Source: Bacillus pumilus
GTDB taxonomy: Bacteria > Bacillota > Bacilli > Bacillales > Bacillaceae
Assembly: GCF_009937765.1 (NCBI RefSeq)
Contig: NZ_CP047089.1
Span: 742,272 to 806,271, forward strand
DNA length: 64,000 bases
Direction of reading: 5' to 3'
Shown here piece after piece: positions 24,897-62,572 of the stretch; the stretch's first letter is position 1; each line of letters starts with the position of its first letter. The notes under the pieces were generated by a model, which saw nothing but the letters and a program-made list of their open reading frames with translations, was not told the DNA's origin and did not search any database. The translations under genes were made by a program, and so were the position numbers.

Positions 24897-25310
24897 TTAA
24901 TCTTCTTTTGCATTTAACAGCAGCATACTGATGATGATCAGAATAAATGCAATAAGTGCTAATAGCGGAATGGTGATAAAACCAAACCAGTTCAAATAAT
25001 CTACAGAACAAGGAATGCCGCTGAGACAAGGGCGAATCGACGCAAAGCCTGGGATTTTTTGTTCCATATAATGATAGATGGAAAAGCAAGCACCGATGAC
25101 AGCCAAAGGCAGTACGTAATACTTCACTTTAACATCACCCCGGAACGTAGCAATTCCTAGTAAAAGCACGAGCGGGTACATGAAAATGCGCTGGAACCAG
25201 CACATATCGCATGGAATAAACTTTTTGATTTCACTTAAATACAGGCTGCTCATCGTCGCAACGATCGAGACAATCCAAGCACTGTACAAGTAAATAAGCT
25301 TATTCTTCAT
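24897..25310 (-). CDS. bdbC: disulfide-bond oxidoreductase BdbC (DsbB-like)
   Basis: 137-residue four-helix membrane quinone oxidoreductase that reoxidises BdbD. Two extracellular cysteine pairs are seen: CDMC near residue 37 (IPCDMCWFQRIFMYP) and the pair in RPCLSGIPCSVDYLN near residue 100. The start overlaps the bdbD stop by four bases. The pair supports DNA uptake (ComGC) and disulfide-containing bacteriocins in B. subtilis. Confidence 0.95.
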   Translation of the reverse strand: MKNKLIYLYSAWIVSIVATMSSLYLSEIKKFIPCDMCWFQRIFMYPLVLLLGIATFRGDVKVKYYVLPLAVIGACFSIYHYMEQKIPGFASIRPCLSGIPCSVDYLNWFGFITIPLLALIAFILIIISMLLLNAKED

Positions 25311-25993
25311 GATTTCTTCCCTTTAAGCTCTTGATCAATTAATTCTTTGATTTCATCATAGTCATAGAAATTTTGAACTTGTTTATTGTTAATAAAGATC
25401 GTTGGTGTTGAATTCACTTTGTATTTGTTCACAAGCTGATTGTCTGTGTTCAGCTGCGGCTGATACGTTTTCTTTGATAAATGATCTTTGAGTTTGTCCG
25501 TATCAATTTTTGTTGTCTTTTTCGCCAGTTCAGTCAGCTTAGCAGGGGTCACCCATTCTGCTTCACTATCTGGCTGTGCTTGATAGACAGCTTCATGGAA
25601 TGCCCAGAAGTTTTTTGGATCTTCTTTCCACACTTCTTCAGAAGCAAGTGCTGCTAACACTGCGCCATCTCCATGAACAGGCAGTGGTAAGTTAATAAAT
25701 GAGAAAGATACATCGCCTTTATCTATGTAGTCTGCTTTCAGTTTTGGGAAAATGTCTGTTTCAAATGATTTACATGACGGACATTTGTAGTCTCCAAACT
25801 CGACAATTTGCACTGCTGCATTTTTGTCTCCTATGACAGGTTGTCCTTGAATCGAAGGCTTACTGTCAACTGTTTGTGCTTCTTGGCTGTTCTTGTTTCC
25901 AATCACAACAAATATACCGATGAGAAGAGCGGCAATAATGGTTAAAATGACAGCAAATTTAATGGATGAAGATTGATTATTTTTCTTACTCAC
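25307..25993 (-). CDS. bdbD: thiol-disulfide oxidase BdbD (DsbA-like)
   Basis: 228-residue membrane-anchored thioredoxin-fold oxidase. A signal-anchor helix at residues ~10-32 leads to the mature domain with active site CPSC in FGDYKCPSCKSFE. The cis-proline segment is NSTPTIFINN. A DsbA-type helical insertion lies between them. First gene of bdbDC, 144 bases downstream of cadA on the same strand. Confidence 0.95.
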   Translation of the reverse strand: MSKKNNQSSSIKFAVILTIIAALLIGIFVVIGNKNSQEAQTVDSKPSIQGQPVIGDKNAAVQIVEFGDYKCPSCKSFETDIFPKLKADYIDKGDVSFSFINLPLPVHGDGAVLAALASEEVWKEDPKNFWAFHEAVYQAQPDSEAEWVTPAKLTELAKKTTKIDTDKLKDHLSKKTYQPQLNTDNQLVNKYKVNSTPTIFINNKQVQNFYDYDEIKELIDQELKGKKS

Positions 25994-59197: not shown

Positions 59198-59219
59198 TTT
59201 TTTTCAGCCTGCTTTTTTT
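59187..59219 (+). terminator. terminator after yvbK
   Basis: GCAG-CTG/CAG-CTGC hairpin followed by seven T residues; it includes the yvbK stop. Confidence 0.75.
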
Positions 59220-59499
59220 ATGCTCTTCTTTTCTTCATAGCATGAATCACATATTGAATGAAAAAATAAAGCACTGCGCCAGCTAAAAAGCAGACTACGC
59301 ATCCAAAAAGAGTCGCCTCAGAGCTGAACTGATACTCTTCAATTTTCATGATATAAAATGGCATGCCAAACAGCGTTGGACTTGATTCGATTTGATTGAC
59401 CTCTAGCAGCAGTAAAAAGACAGGGGTCATAAACACAGCAAATATATACAGCATCGCAAGTGTTAAGCCGCTAGAAAACGAATGAAATACTTTAATCAT
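59218..59499 (-). CDS. small two-helix membrane protein of the eno-linked cassette
   Basis: 93 residues from ATG 59499 (GAAGGAGAG upstream), overlapping the protease stop. Two hydrophobic segments (about 8-32 and 61-85) around an extracytoplasmic loop, with a basic C-terminal end KKRRA. No family recognised. As the last gene of a peptide-ABC-protease cassette it might be an immunity or accessory protein, but that is inference from position and size only. Confidence 0.72.
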   Translation of the reverse strand: MIKVFHSFSSGLTLAMLYIFAVFMTPVFLLLLEVNQIESSPTLFGMPFYIMKIEEYQFSSEATLFGCVVCFLAGAVLYFFIQYVIHAMKKRRA

Positions 59500-59864
59500 C
59501 TCTTTCTCTCCTTCATCTCTTTTAAACTGGCTGTGATATTTTGTCCGTCTGGGCAAGCTGGATGCAGCATCACAGTGTTCAGTAAAGAAAAAAACAGCAG
59601 CTGATGACTCATCGGATGCTTCCATATCAAAAAAAGCACAATCGAGCTAAGCACCGGAAACAACGGACCTGCAAGCGCCACCATCAGATTAAAGCACGGC
59701 CTGGCAAATGTCTCATGGACGATCGCCACATGCTTCCAATCAATCGTTACCACAAAATCAAAGAGCTGCCTTTTTTCGAGTTTGTTACACCCCATGATCA
59801 TCAGCATATGACCGATTTCATGAATGAGCACAACAGCTAGTAAACTGAGGATCAGCCCGATCAT
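59496..59864 (-). CDS. minimal M50-type membrane zinc protease
   Basis: 122 residues. Three hallmarks of site-2-type proteases occur in the right order: zinc motif HEIGH (15-19) inside a hydrophobic helix, an ALAGPL turn (63-68) and the third-ligand motif N-TVMLHPACPDG (96-107) with Asp106. The protein is about half the length of SpoIVFB or YydH, yet the core appears complete. It overlaps the permease stop by four bases. In peptide cassettes such proteins may cleave the precursor within the membrane (analogy with YydH). Confidence 0.8.
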   Translation of the reverse strand: MIGLILSLLAVVLIHEIGHMLMIMGCNKLEKRQLFDFVVTIDWKHVAIVHETFARPCFNLMVALAGPLFPVLSSIVLFLIWKHPMSHQLLFFSLLNTVMLHPACPDGQNITASLKEMKERKR

Positions 59865-61258
59865 CGCAATATCGGCCTTTTTACCATCACAGCATATATA
59901 CAACTGAAAAAGGCAAATGAACCAAATAGATAAGCGGTGGCAAGAAGAAACATATTAGCTGACAGCCATTGTAATAAAAGCATATCGATGAAGCTGAATA
60001 CAGCAATCATCATCACGATGACAAACAGTTTATTAAAATCACTGATTTTCACGACAAACCCCGTACAGGCTGCCATGACGGTCATGAATAAAATGGACAA
60101 GCTCGCCAAGCCATGACCTTCACTTTCAATACCGATCACCAAATAAGCAAGGCCAATATACATAAAATAAATGAATAAATTGATTGTGTAATAAAATAAA
60201 ATTCTCGACAATATATACGCGCCCTTTGATGTATTTAACATAAAGATAGCCCGTTGATTGAGATGATATTCTCTGCCAATCATCAGCGGAAGCATGATCA
60301 ATATTTCCTTTAACGCAAACTGCACAATAAAGGCATATAGCCATCCAGTTTCTTCCGGTGTAAAAAAAAATGGCAGCCCAACCGTCAAACAAACGAGAAA
60401 GAGGAACAAAATGCCTTGTTCTTTAAAAACGGCTGATCGGATGAAATAGACCATTTCCTGCCGCAAATGCGTCAAAAAGGAAGAGGTCATTCTGATTTTC
60501 TGATAAGAAAATGACTTTATCTCTGTTTTCAACTGCATAAACATTTGATGTACATAGCAAGCTGCTAATCCCTTCACCCATAGCCATCCAGCGCTTAGAA
60601 GGATCACCAGCAACGTCAGATAGACAGCCGGCCATACATGGATCATCTGTACCGCTTTTTGAAAAAGAAGAAATATAAATAATTGAAATCCCGCAAAGCC
60701 GATCGTTTGTAGCAGTAAATGTTCCTTTGTTTTTGATATGAAACGGCTTATACCGATCCTCATCAGCATCCATGAAGAGAGCGTATAAAGTGCCAACATG
60801 CCGCATGTGATGCAAACAACGATGATCCAATACAGAGATGGGGTGACACCGGTGATCAAAAGACCTAATACAAGCGGTAAAAAAAGCAGTCCAGCCATGA
60901 GAAAGCAAAAAAGCACTGGAAAGAAATAGGCACAAAGGACAAATGGTACACTTTGTATCGCACTGTTCAAAAAGTAGAATTGATATTCTTGGCGCTTCAG
61001 TTTATTCCGGGATAACACAATCCCTGCTCCTAATAGTAAGAGCGACATTTTGACAAATTGGGTGTATAGCGCAGCCGGCTCCCTTTCACCTACCTGCATG
61101 TAAAAGCGCAGGCTGATGACAACATATATCGCATAGATGAGCAAGAAAAAAACGGCGGCTGCGAGAAGCTGCAAAGGATACTTTTTTCCAAGCTGCTTTC
61201 CTTTCGTTGTCAGCATGCCCCATTCTATTTTATGAAGAACGTGTCGTGTCCAAATCAT
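59861..61258 (-). CDS. polytopic ABC transporter membrane subunit of the eno-linked cassette
   Basis: 465 residues with about twelve hydrophobic segments and small basic loops. No sequence family is recognised; size and layout are like the SkfF/YydJ-type exporters. The start at ATG 61258 has GAGAGG upstream and overlaps the ATPase gene by 29 bases; ATG 61216 is the alternative. The overlap with the ATPase and with the protease shows one operon. Peptide export or self-protection is a plausible role, not shown. Confidence 0.8.
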   Translation of the reverse strand: MIWTRHVLHKIEWGMLTTKGKQLGKKYPLQLLAAAVFFLLIYAIYVVISLRFYMQVGEREPAALYTQFVKMSLLLLGAGIVLSRNKLKRQEYQFYFLNSAIQSVPFVLCAYFFPVLFCFLMAGLLFLPLVLGLLITGVTPSLYWIIVVCITCGMLALYTLSSWMLMRIGISRFISKTKEHLLLQTIGFAGFQLFIFLLFQKAVQMIHVWPAVYLTLLVILLSAGWLWVKGLAACYVHQMFMQLKTEIKSFSYQKIRMTSSFLTHLRQEMVYFIRSAVFKEQGILFLFLVCLTVGLPFFFTPEETGWLYAFIVQFALKEILIMLPLMIGREYHLNQRAIFMLNTSKGAYILSRILFYYTINLFIYFMYIGLAYLVIGIESEGHGLASLSILFMTVMAACTGFVVKISDFNKLFVIVMMIAVFSFIDMLLLQWLSANMFLLATAYLFGSFAFFSCIYAVMVKRPILR

Positions 61259-62000
61259 TGAGTAACCTCTCCACCTGCATATAGTAATCTCGATTTACTT
61301 CTTTATAAATCTCTTCAAGTGCCTGATGAGGATATGTCTCTTTCGTTTCTTGGCGGGACATATTCAGCTTGATATCACCATTCCTTAAGATCATGAGATG
61401 ATCATATAATGTATCACCAAAGCTCAAATGATGAGTTGATATCAGGATGCCAGCGCCTTGATCTCTCAGCTTCATGAGCACCTTTTTTAAGATGATCATC
61501 ATATCTGGATCAAGTCCGTTCGTTGGCTCGTCAAATACATAATAATCACACGGTCTGAGGAGCTGCGAAATAATCTGTGTTTTCTTTTGATTGCCATGGG
61601 ACAGCTGAGCGATTGGCTGATCCATATACGGACTCAGCTCAAACAAATCGGTAAATGTCTCTTCACGTGTAACATCTTGCTCATGTGGCAGCTGAAGTAA
61701 TTGAAAGTATTCCCTTGGTGTTAAATAATCGAACAATGCATGATCGTCAGGAATATAAGAAACGTGTTTTTTCAAAAGGGAAATATGTGCTGAGGATTGA
61801 AGGTTCAGCTGTTCACCATGTAAGGAAACGTAGCCAGTAAATGGCGTGAGTCCAAACATAGCTTGGATCATGGTTGTCTTTCCTGCCCCATTGTGTCCTA
61901 AAAGAAGCATCGTCTGGCCTTTCTTCACGTTCAGTTGTATATGACGAAGAGAGAAGGTGCGGCTATACGTTTTTTCTTGTAATTGTAATGTCAGCATCAT
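61230..62000 (-). CDS. ABC transporter ATP-binding protein of the eno-linked cassette
   Basis: 256 residues. Walker A LLGHNGAGKTTMIQ (33-46), Q-loop IPDDHALFDYLTPREY, signature LSHGNQKKTQIISQLL, Walker B YYVFDEPTNGLDPDMM and H-loop STHHLSFGDTLYDHL. The LSHGN signature is typical of CcmA-class drug/bacteriocin exporters such as SkfE and YydI. The ATG follows CGGAGG; a second ATG is adjacent (61997). 55 bases after the small peptide gene. Confidence 0.9.
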   Translation of the reverse strand: MMLTLQLQEKTYSRTFSLRHIQLNVKKGQTMLLLGHNGAGKTTMIQAMFGLTPFTGYVSLHGEQLNLQSSAHISLLKKHVSYIPDDHALFDYLTPREYFQLLQLPHEQDVTREETFTDLFELSPYMDQPIAQLSHGNQKKTQIISQLLRPCDYYVFDEPTNGLDPDMMIILKKVLMKLRDQGAGILISTHHLSFGDTLYDHLMILRNGDIKLNMSRQETKETYPHQALEEIYKEVNRDYYMQVERLLNDLDTTRSS

Positions 62001-62055
62001 ATTCCTCCGTTTGTTTCAGATGGAACAGATGACCTTGCATCTGTTCTCATCCGTG

Positions 62056-62325
62056 TTAGAAACCGCATTTGATTTTCACGTACATGCCTAAGAACTTGAA
62101 TTCGCCTAAAAATTTAGAGCCTTTTCCAAAGGTCTTGCATGCCCAAATCAATGCTGCGACTGTCACAATACCTAAAATAGCGGCAAGGACATAAATCCAA
62201 AATGCATTTTTCTGTACGTTCTTAGAAGTTAGAATTCGTTGCTTCCTTTCATCATAAGCCGCCAATAGGTGAAGGACATACATATACACACCTACTGGAA
62301 AACGAAGGCTAAAAGGATTCAGCAT
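62056..62325 (-). CDS. putative secreted/membrane peptide precursor, first gene of the cassette
   Basis: 89 residues from ATG 62325, behind GGGGGTGATGAG. The N-terminal part (1-40) is amphipathic and ends in a basic segment (ERKQRILTSKNVQKN). A strong hydrophobic helix spans 41-62 (FWIYVLAAILGIVTVAALIWA). The C-terminal 27 residues are basic and aromatic, with Cys63 and Cys87 (CKTFGKGSKFLGEF...KIKCGF). This looks like a bacteriocin or signal-peptide precursor in front of its own ABC transporter and membrane protease. No match to a known bacteriocin is recalled. Confidence 0.7.
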   Translation of the reverse strand: MLNPFSLRFPVGVYMYVLHLLAAYDERKQRILTSKNVQKNAFWIYVLAAILGIVTVAALIWACKTFGKGSKFLGEFKFLGMYVKIKCGF

Positions 62326-62527
62326 CTCATCACCCCCTAATATATGTAAAATGATACTATCCCGCATACAGAAAACATAAGTTCATTTCAGATCATATTT
62401 TTAGTCGATTTTTCATGATCTATTGCTTATAAATGGTAAAGCTGTGCGCTTTCCCTCTGACTGAAGGACGATTTTTTACAAAAATAGGATGTGACTATTG
62501 AAACAGCTGCGGAATCTCTATCAACCA
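62326..62527. other. promoter region of the peptide cassette
   Basis: No gene seen between eno's terminator and the peptide gene. It must contain the cassette promoter; AT-rich stretches on the minus strand near 62395-62440 are candidates, without a clear consensus. Confidence 0.4.
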
Positions 62528-62572
62528 AAAAAAAACGCTGCGCCCACTCTAATATAAGAGCGGAACGCAGCG
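62528..62572 (-). terminator. terminator after eno
   Basis: CGCTGCG/CGCAGCG outer stem and CTCT/AGAG inner stem, with nine T residues following on the minus strand. It ends the glycolytic operon transcript. Confidence 0.9.

Follow-up and report, generated by a model that had tools for sequence, protein, structure and literature searches.

We analysed a 64,000-nucleotide stretch of Bacillus pumilus DNA (RefSeq assembly GCF_009937765.1, contig NZ_CP047089.1, positions 742,272 to 806,271; hereafter the window), which carries a five-gene cassette that is very probably a chromosomal bacteriocin cluster of the TMcin type, with the order tmcA-B-C-P-E, likely to make and export a TMcin. TMcins are small secreted antibacterial peptides that form large pores and have one transmembrane helix and a disulfide-pinned hairpin (PMC13252029; main text of PMC12328743). 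According to a reading of the open reading frames (ORFs), five minus-strand ORFs fill positions 62325-59218 of the window. They encode a tmcA-like precursor peptide of 89 amino acids (62056..62325), a tmcB-like ATP-binding cassette (ABC) ATPase of 256 (61230..62000), a tmcC-like 12-helix permease of 465 (59861..61258), a tmcP-like site-2-type zinc protease of 122 (59496..59864) and a tmcE-like two-helix protein of 93 (59218..59499). A 55 bp gap follows the peptide gene, and the next junctions are overlaps of 29, 4 and 4 bp. The cassette lies between two genes that we take to be eno and yvbK, and yvbK, on its far side, is convergent with it.

The peptide gene has a ribosome-binding site, AGGGGGTGATGAG, directly 5′ of its ATG, and its product contains one hydrophobic segment (residues 42-60). 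Alignment with the sequenced N-terminus of TMcin-G1905 predicts a cut between QKN and A41. This would separate a leader of residues 1-40 (62325-62206, minus strand) from a 49-residue mature peptide, A41-F89 (62205-62059, minus strand), made up of a helix at about 42-62, C63, a hairpin and C87; the computed monoisotopic mass of the oxidised A41-F89 product is 5415.96 Da (5418.0 reduced). In a nine-row alignment covering three families, Q38, N40, W43, A57, C63, G74, F76 and C87 are invariant. A tryptophan thus stands near one helix end in all nine rows (W43) and near the other in eight (W61, missing in L039), and the two cysteines, 24 residues apart and joined by a putative disulfide, are kept in every row. 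No Pfam or NCBIfam family is matched by the peptide above the curated cut-off; its match to DUF6353 (E 0.0091) and the other sub-threshold matches were weak and were taken as chance. Searches of PDB sequences with the peptide and with the protease gave noise-level matches alone.

Among the five proteins, only the ABC protein has a Pfam or NCBIfam match above cut-off (Pfam PF00005, E=2.4e-22); PDB sequences related to it are generic ABC chains, and among its best 25 matches listed by PADLOC all are of the ATPase type. The permease has 12 hydrophobic segments; at thresholds as loose as E=1 neither Pfam nor NCBIfam shows a family for it, and PDB has no matching sequence. The protease carries H15-E16-x-x-H19 (HEIGH) and P105-D106-G107 (PDG), and these catalytic residues are invariant in seven aligned rows. 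Its best Pfam match is to DUF3267 (E=1.3e-4, profile positions 2-100 of 108) and it also matches M50 (E=0.0047), both below cut-off. The two-helix protein has two hydrophobic segments, a net-negative loop at residues 36-63 and KKRR at its end. It is conserved across families, and it and two relatives resemble the LlsX family at scores below cut-off (E 0.029-0.45).

Within the genus, the peptide was found in 15 of 44 genomes, that of the window included (E<=2.4e-36), and the same 15 were recovered among 80 genomes of the family with the peptide as bait. All 15 have the five genes full length, open, in the same order and between eno and yvbK; a search of genome contigs with the permease gave eight loci with all five genes in that place, from eight of these 15. 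If the pumilus group is defined by a yvbK identity of 71% or more to the copy in the window (17 genomes; the identity is 55-64% in 26 of the other 27 and 38% in one), the whole cassette is present in 15 of its 17 members. The sequence-only reading had described five close or overlapping genes of one direction, inserted between yvbK and eno. All five were indeed found on the minus strand, and in four of the 10 genomes examined from elsewhere in the genus eno lies directly beside yvbK. In the other six, the 5.2-5.6 kb retrieved next to yvbK on this side contained neither eno nor cassette genes (tblastn at E<=1e-4, with ABC matches below 40% identity dropped). The linkage of peptide and transporter, which the same reading had named as a check, held in each of the 15 genomes of the genus that the peptide query had picked out. 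A further 13 same-genus peptide matches, at E 0.019-0.91, were treated as chance, as were weak matches in G025 and G026, where the surrounding ORFs hold no cassette.

Beyond the pumilus group, overlapping samples yielded 11 genomes with the permease (299 genomes of the order; 146, 151 and 7 of three families), and a fourth family (that of G183, four genomes) added none. Six distant genomes from other Bacillales (G341, G1114, G225, G1115, G1105 and G084) have all five genes open; the peptide was recognised there beside the permease, so that the linkage in these loci holds by construction. The distant copies sit in other surroundings, which differ between genera. In G1038, all five genes are present and four are open, and the protease is split between two overlapping frames (HELGH in one, PDG in the other; L057:5988-6348). 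A contig edge falls inside the permease of G242, and the protease and two-helix genes follow. G183 (L037:5525-8287) represents a second kind of partial loss: its ORFs for the ATPase, the permease and the two-helix protein are open, the protease has decayed (HETGY, with the frame lost), and no peptide was detected. G1041 retains the permease plus the last part of the ATPase. In G1202 the ORFs of the ATPase, the protease and the two-helix protein are present, the permease is interrupted by a stop, and the peptide is reduced to a leader-like stretch (hidden Markov model (HMM) E 0.036). No permease was found outside the order in samples of the class and phylum (398 and 299 genomes, overlapping the other samples), although the window permease profile misses the permeases of TMcin-type plasmids, so that the kind may be more widely spread. 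Window-type peptide and permease queries found nothing on plasmids, and the permease query found nothing in phages.

The presence of the same five open genes in the same order in 15 of 15 same-genus genomes, together with their open state in six distant genomes, confirms that the five-gene cassette between eno and yvbK is real, beyond chance. Mean nonsynonymous divergence (dN) divided by mean synonymous divergence (dS) over nine pumilus-group sequences is 0.14 for the peptide, 0.09 for the ATPase, 0.17 for the permease, 0.22 for the protease and 0.07 for the two-helix protein. From these values of 0.07-0.22 for the five genes it follows that the cassette is kept, not just carried.

TMcins were described in 2025 from a staphylococcal plasmid (main text of PMC12328743), and PMC13252029 is a preprint of 2026. 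In these clusters, tmcB and tmcC export the peptide, tmcP (DUF3267, site-2 type) cuts the leader and tmcE (two helices) acts as an escort (PMC13252029; PMC12328743, main text). The TMcin-G1905 peptide as printed in the main text of PMC12328743 matched six plasmid records. We compared the loci of Peribacillus, Roseburia and one Paraclostridium, leaving out S. epidermidis and two further Paraclostridium. A profile of 10 window-type peptide cores (the window, two pumilus-group relatives and seven distant sequences, with two near-identical pairs) was aligned by hhalign to four TMcin-type peptides with a probability of 88.4 and a score of 30.4. None of 200 column shuffles with both cysteine columns fixed reached this score (mean 14.6, maximum 28.2). 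An HMM of window-type peptides scored the single TMcin-G1905 sequence at 16.2 bits, and 0 of 4999 whole shuffles did as well. The layouts also agree: the leader has 40 residues in the window and 45 in TMcin-G1905, the mature peptide 49 and 52, the cysteine spacing is 24 and 25, and both have tryptophans near both helix ends; a helix and two strands predicted at low confidence for the window peptide fit the same layout. Furthermore, the Paraclostridium bifermentans plasmid locus (CP124688.1, L086), whose peptide is 39% identical to TMcin-G1905, has the gene order of the window, namely peptide, ABC, permease, M50 and two-helix protein. The protease profile matched the M50 part of its protein, from which the first 125 residues had been removed, and 0 of 60 shuffles did as well. 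DUF3267, the best Pfam match of the window protease, is also the family assigned to TmcP (PMC13252029). The window-type ATPase profile matches the ABC genes of two of the three plasmid loci (7.4e-46 and 4.4e-40). A match between ABC proteins is not diagnostic, and no ABC gene adjoins the Roseburia peptide.

Taken together, these comparisons suggest that the cassette is a divergent member of the TMcin clusters, tied to them in sequence by the peptide and, less widely, by the protease. The permease and the two-helix protein are tied to TMcin by position, size and topology only. The fifth gene thus corresponds to the escort TmcE in position and topology, and the ABC ATPase and 12-helix permease are assigned to TmcBC by kind and topology only. 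Like the window, the TMcin-G1905 cluster of Staphylococcus aureus has a one-helix precursor with a leader, two cysteines and a two-strand tail, an ABC ATPase with a 12-helix permease, a DUF3267/site-2-type protease and a two-helix escort (PMC13252029; main text of PMC12328743); in the window the leader, the strands of the tail and the escort role are predicted, and the permease, protease and escort were compared with the staphylococcal ones through published descriptions. The two differ in arrangement, the staphylococcal core operon being written tmcB to tmcA (PMC13252029), and in that the window cassette is chromosomal and nearly fixed in its species group. The cassette also has no linked regulators or tmcD (DsbA), a gene absent from non-staphylococcal TMcin clusters (PMC13252029). 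The Paraclostridium locus differs from the window in its M50 protein, annotated as PqqD family and extended at the N-terminus, in a permease read in two overlapping frames, and in the thioredoxin-like gene that follows. In the Roseburia plasmid locus (L085:7056-8588), translation places a thioredoxin-like protein and a membrane protein directly after the protease, perhaps a substitute for TmcD. The word "pumilus" is absent from the main text of PMC12328743, a negative that does not extend to its figures and supplement with the tree, and our literature search found no paper combining "TMcin" and "Bacillus pumilus".

A number of observations weigh against this assignment. The order A-B-C-P-E occurs in one of the three plasmid loci examined: that of Peribacillus consists of peptide, ABC and permease, with no M50 or two-helix gene adjacent, and that of Roseburia of peptide, a two-helix-like gene and M50, with no adjacent ABC pair. 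A stricter null for the peptide HMM, in which the halves were shuffled separately and the cysteines kept, was reached by 10 of 5000 shuffles. The DUF3267 score of the protease is under the curated cut-off, its profile matched the Roseburia M50 protein at noise level (4 of 60 shuffles as good), and a plain HMM search of the whole Paraclostridium M50 protein gave a weak match (E 0.38). Neither the permease (matched or beaten by 20 and 34 of 60 shuffles) nor the two-helix protein (34 and 13 of 60) showed a sequence relation to its counterparts in the plasmid loci. AlphaFold modelled the peptide with a helix at 37-65 and strands at 75-78 and 81-84, at a confidence (mean predicted local distance difference test (pLDDT) score 56, about 42-43 in the strand block) too low to prove the fold, and its permease model (mean pLDDT 37.5) is unusable for this purpose. 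A toxin in an arms race would not usually be under purifying selection as strong as that on the peptide (dN/dS 0.14). Finally, genome G012 gave no peptide match, and we take both G012 and NC_006270.3 to be B. licheniformis ATCC 14580. NC_006270.3 is cited as a TMcin carrier in the main text of PMC12328743.

Other functions could be proposed for a cassette of this composition. A module of membrane stress or housekeeping, with the one-helix peptide regulating the ABC transporter as one of its subunits and being turned over by the protease, would agree with the purifying selection and with presence in 15 of 17 pumilus-group genomes. EcsAB/PptAB with RasP/Eep join an ABC exporter and an M50 protease that act on small membrane peptides. 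These are general housekeeping partners of unlinked peptides, and the window permease, in contrast, matches no Pfam family. The relation of the peptide to TMcins, the patchy, rare occurrence of the cassette elsewhere (the permease in the 11 outside genomes) and its complete or partial losses speak against such a module, which we regard as unlikely. The sequence-only reading's check for a known housekeeping membrane protein turned up no curated Pfam or NCBIfam match for the peptide. We give slightly less credence still to an exported, pheromone-like signal without killing function, for which the M50 protein would do the maturation and the ABC transporter the pumping. The peptide is strongly conserved in the pumilus group (83-98% identity in eight relatives, besides its low dN/dS), as would fit a shared signal, and Eep/PptAB-type pheromone systems likewise pair an M50 protease with an ABC exporter. 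Its core, however, is a helix and a cysteine-pinned tail related to the pore-forming TMcins. Moreover, when a conserved sixth gene was sought among the neighbouring ORFs (at least 60 amino acids) of six loci, ABC ATPases alone recurred, and no common receptor or regulator gene was seen. The signalling role that the sequence-only reading had offered beside a bacteriocin found no support.

That reading had also looked to the yyd and skf loci for the nearest kin. The epipeptide (yyd/epe) loci of Bacillus combine a small peptide, an M50 protease and an ABC transporter, as does the window. They encode a different kind of peptide and need a radical-SAM epimerase. No radical-SAM match was found among the five proteins in Pfam and NCBIfam (for the ABC protein, among the best 25 of 198 NCBIfam matches); the wider flanks were not searched, and eno and yvbK bound the cassette closely. 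The epipeptide protease EpeP is also an M50 protein (PMC10885120). With two invariant cysteines and a TMcin match in the peptide, an epipeptide- or SKF-like system is very improbable, and TMcin is the closest described system. Within the same scope, there was no SpoIIM/DUF95 protein, a mark of circular bacteriocins, and the circular-bacteriocin clusters with an M50 gene (PMC8534725 and PMC8659200) are other clusters. What the sequence-only reading had proposed in general terms, a bacteriocin-type system with a site-2-type zinc protease and ABC export and no radical-SAM enzyme among its five genes, is supported.

Based on the published staphylococcal system, we can propose how the TMcin-type cassette would work, with cleavage, escort, disulfide formation, export and pore formation all drawn by analogy. 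TmcA would insert in the membrane with its leader inside and its cysteine-pinned hairpin outside. We place the leader and tails inside and the loop and hairpin outside because positive residues precede the peptide helix and the two-helix protein ends in KKRR. TmcP, guided by TmcE, would then remove the leader of about 40 residues at the cytoplasmic edge of the helix. Cleavage of the precursor by the protease, as put forward in the sequence-only reading, is supported, with the predicted cut at the N-terminal helix edge (QKN before A41) and not within the helix. The C63-C87 disulfide would form, perhaps via the host's BdbD, and TmcBC would lift the 49-residue product from the membrane and release it. 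In the membrane of a Gram-positive target, the product would oligomerise to a beta-barrel pore ringed by its helices. A possible source of the disulfide is a BdbD-like thioredoxin-fold protein with a CPSC motif (25307..25993, minus strand; PF13462, E=7.0e-33), unlinked and 33 kb away in the window. It is overlapped by a minus-strand ORF (24897..25310) that is likely its partner and is presumably BdbC-like.

Two of the 17 pumilus-group genomes, G019 and G034, lack the peptide. In G019 (L090), a deletion took tmcB and tmcC whole, almost the whole of tmcP and the greater part of tmcA with its start codon, leaving part of the upstream region, a remnant of the tmcA leader, the last tmcP codons and an open tmcE, in this order. 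A peptide search found no peptide elsewhere in G019; other cassette parts were not searched for there. The mean dN of this orphan tmcE to 15 others is 0.057 in the loop (36-63), and 0.203 and 0.336 in the flanking parts. For the intact tmcE of G013 the corresponding values are 0.073, 0.053 and 0.211, and for the remaining genomes among themselves 0.034, 0.021 and 0.087. (The yvbK dN/dS for G013, where this gene has a stop and is shifted, is meaningless and was unused.) Lineage-specific residues in the G019 protein number two of 28 in the loop versus 20 of 63 elsewhere (Fisher p=0.016, one genome, uncorrected), and in that of G013 three of 28 versus three of 63 (p=0.37).

TmcE is predicted to pair with the C-terminal segment of the peptide, and self-immunity was not studied in that work (PMC13252029). 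Because of this pairing and the open tmcE left in G019, we tentatively hypothesize that TmcE is the TMcin immunity protein, whose outer loop might cap the beta strands of incoming TMcin and block their oligomerisation, and that it can persist alone as a relic after loss of the producer genes. The G019 deletion with its conserved loop suggests as much. The sequence-only reading had let the transporter either export the peptide or protect the producer; export is supported, and where protection is concerned, this single natural deletion favours the two-helix protein over the transporter. Several facts tell against an immunity function. In G019 the orphan tmcE lacks its usual stop, so that the reading frame overlaps the end of the opposite-strand yvbK and reaches 107 residues; G034 (L089) has lost the first tmcE helix as well; and no tmcE was found beside the permease in G1041. 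Protection could equally come from the ATPase and permease, which in G183 are open alongside tmcE. Plain slow decay of the orphan gene may be the alternative.

Upstream of the cassette, the presumed promoter location (62326..62420, minus strand) is conserved in the pumilus group in an alignment of 10 loci. A consensus promoter scan gave fewer sites than shuffles did, and no promoter was identified by it. The likely eno terminator, behind that gene, is an inverted repeat followed by a T run (62527..62572, minus strand), read in the sequence and aligned across loci; its loop is longer than the consensus scan allows, and it is absent from that scan's listing. With eno likely terminated at 62572-62527, the cassette probably has its own promoter and its own transcript start. 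A dyad, AGATCAT-N18-ATGATCT (window 62390-62421), upstream of the peptide gene is partly conserved in the pumilus group and is a possible regulator site. In B. safensis S-11 (L002:3656-4662; same genome as L111), an insert of about 1 kb with an uncharacterised ORF lies between eno and the cassette, which is open.

In conclusion, the kind of system, TMcin, is already known, and the interest of the cassette lies chiefly in its nearly fixed chromosomal state and in the immunity lead. What is new is the G019 deletion leaving tmcE alone, which makes TMcin self-immunity directly testable. A minimal five-gene chromosomal cluster, nearly fixed in the pumilus group, would offer a genetically simple host for that question.

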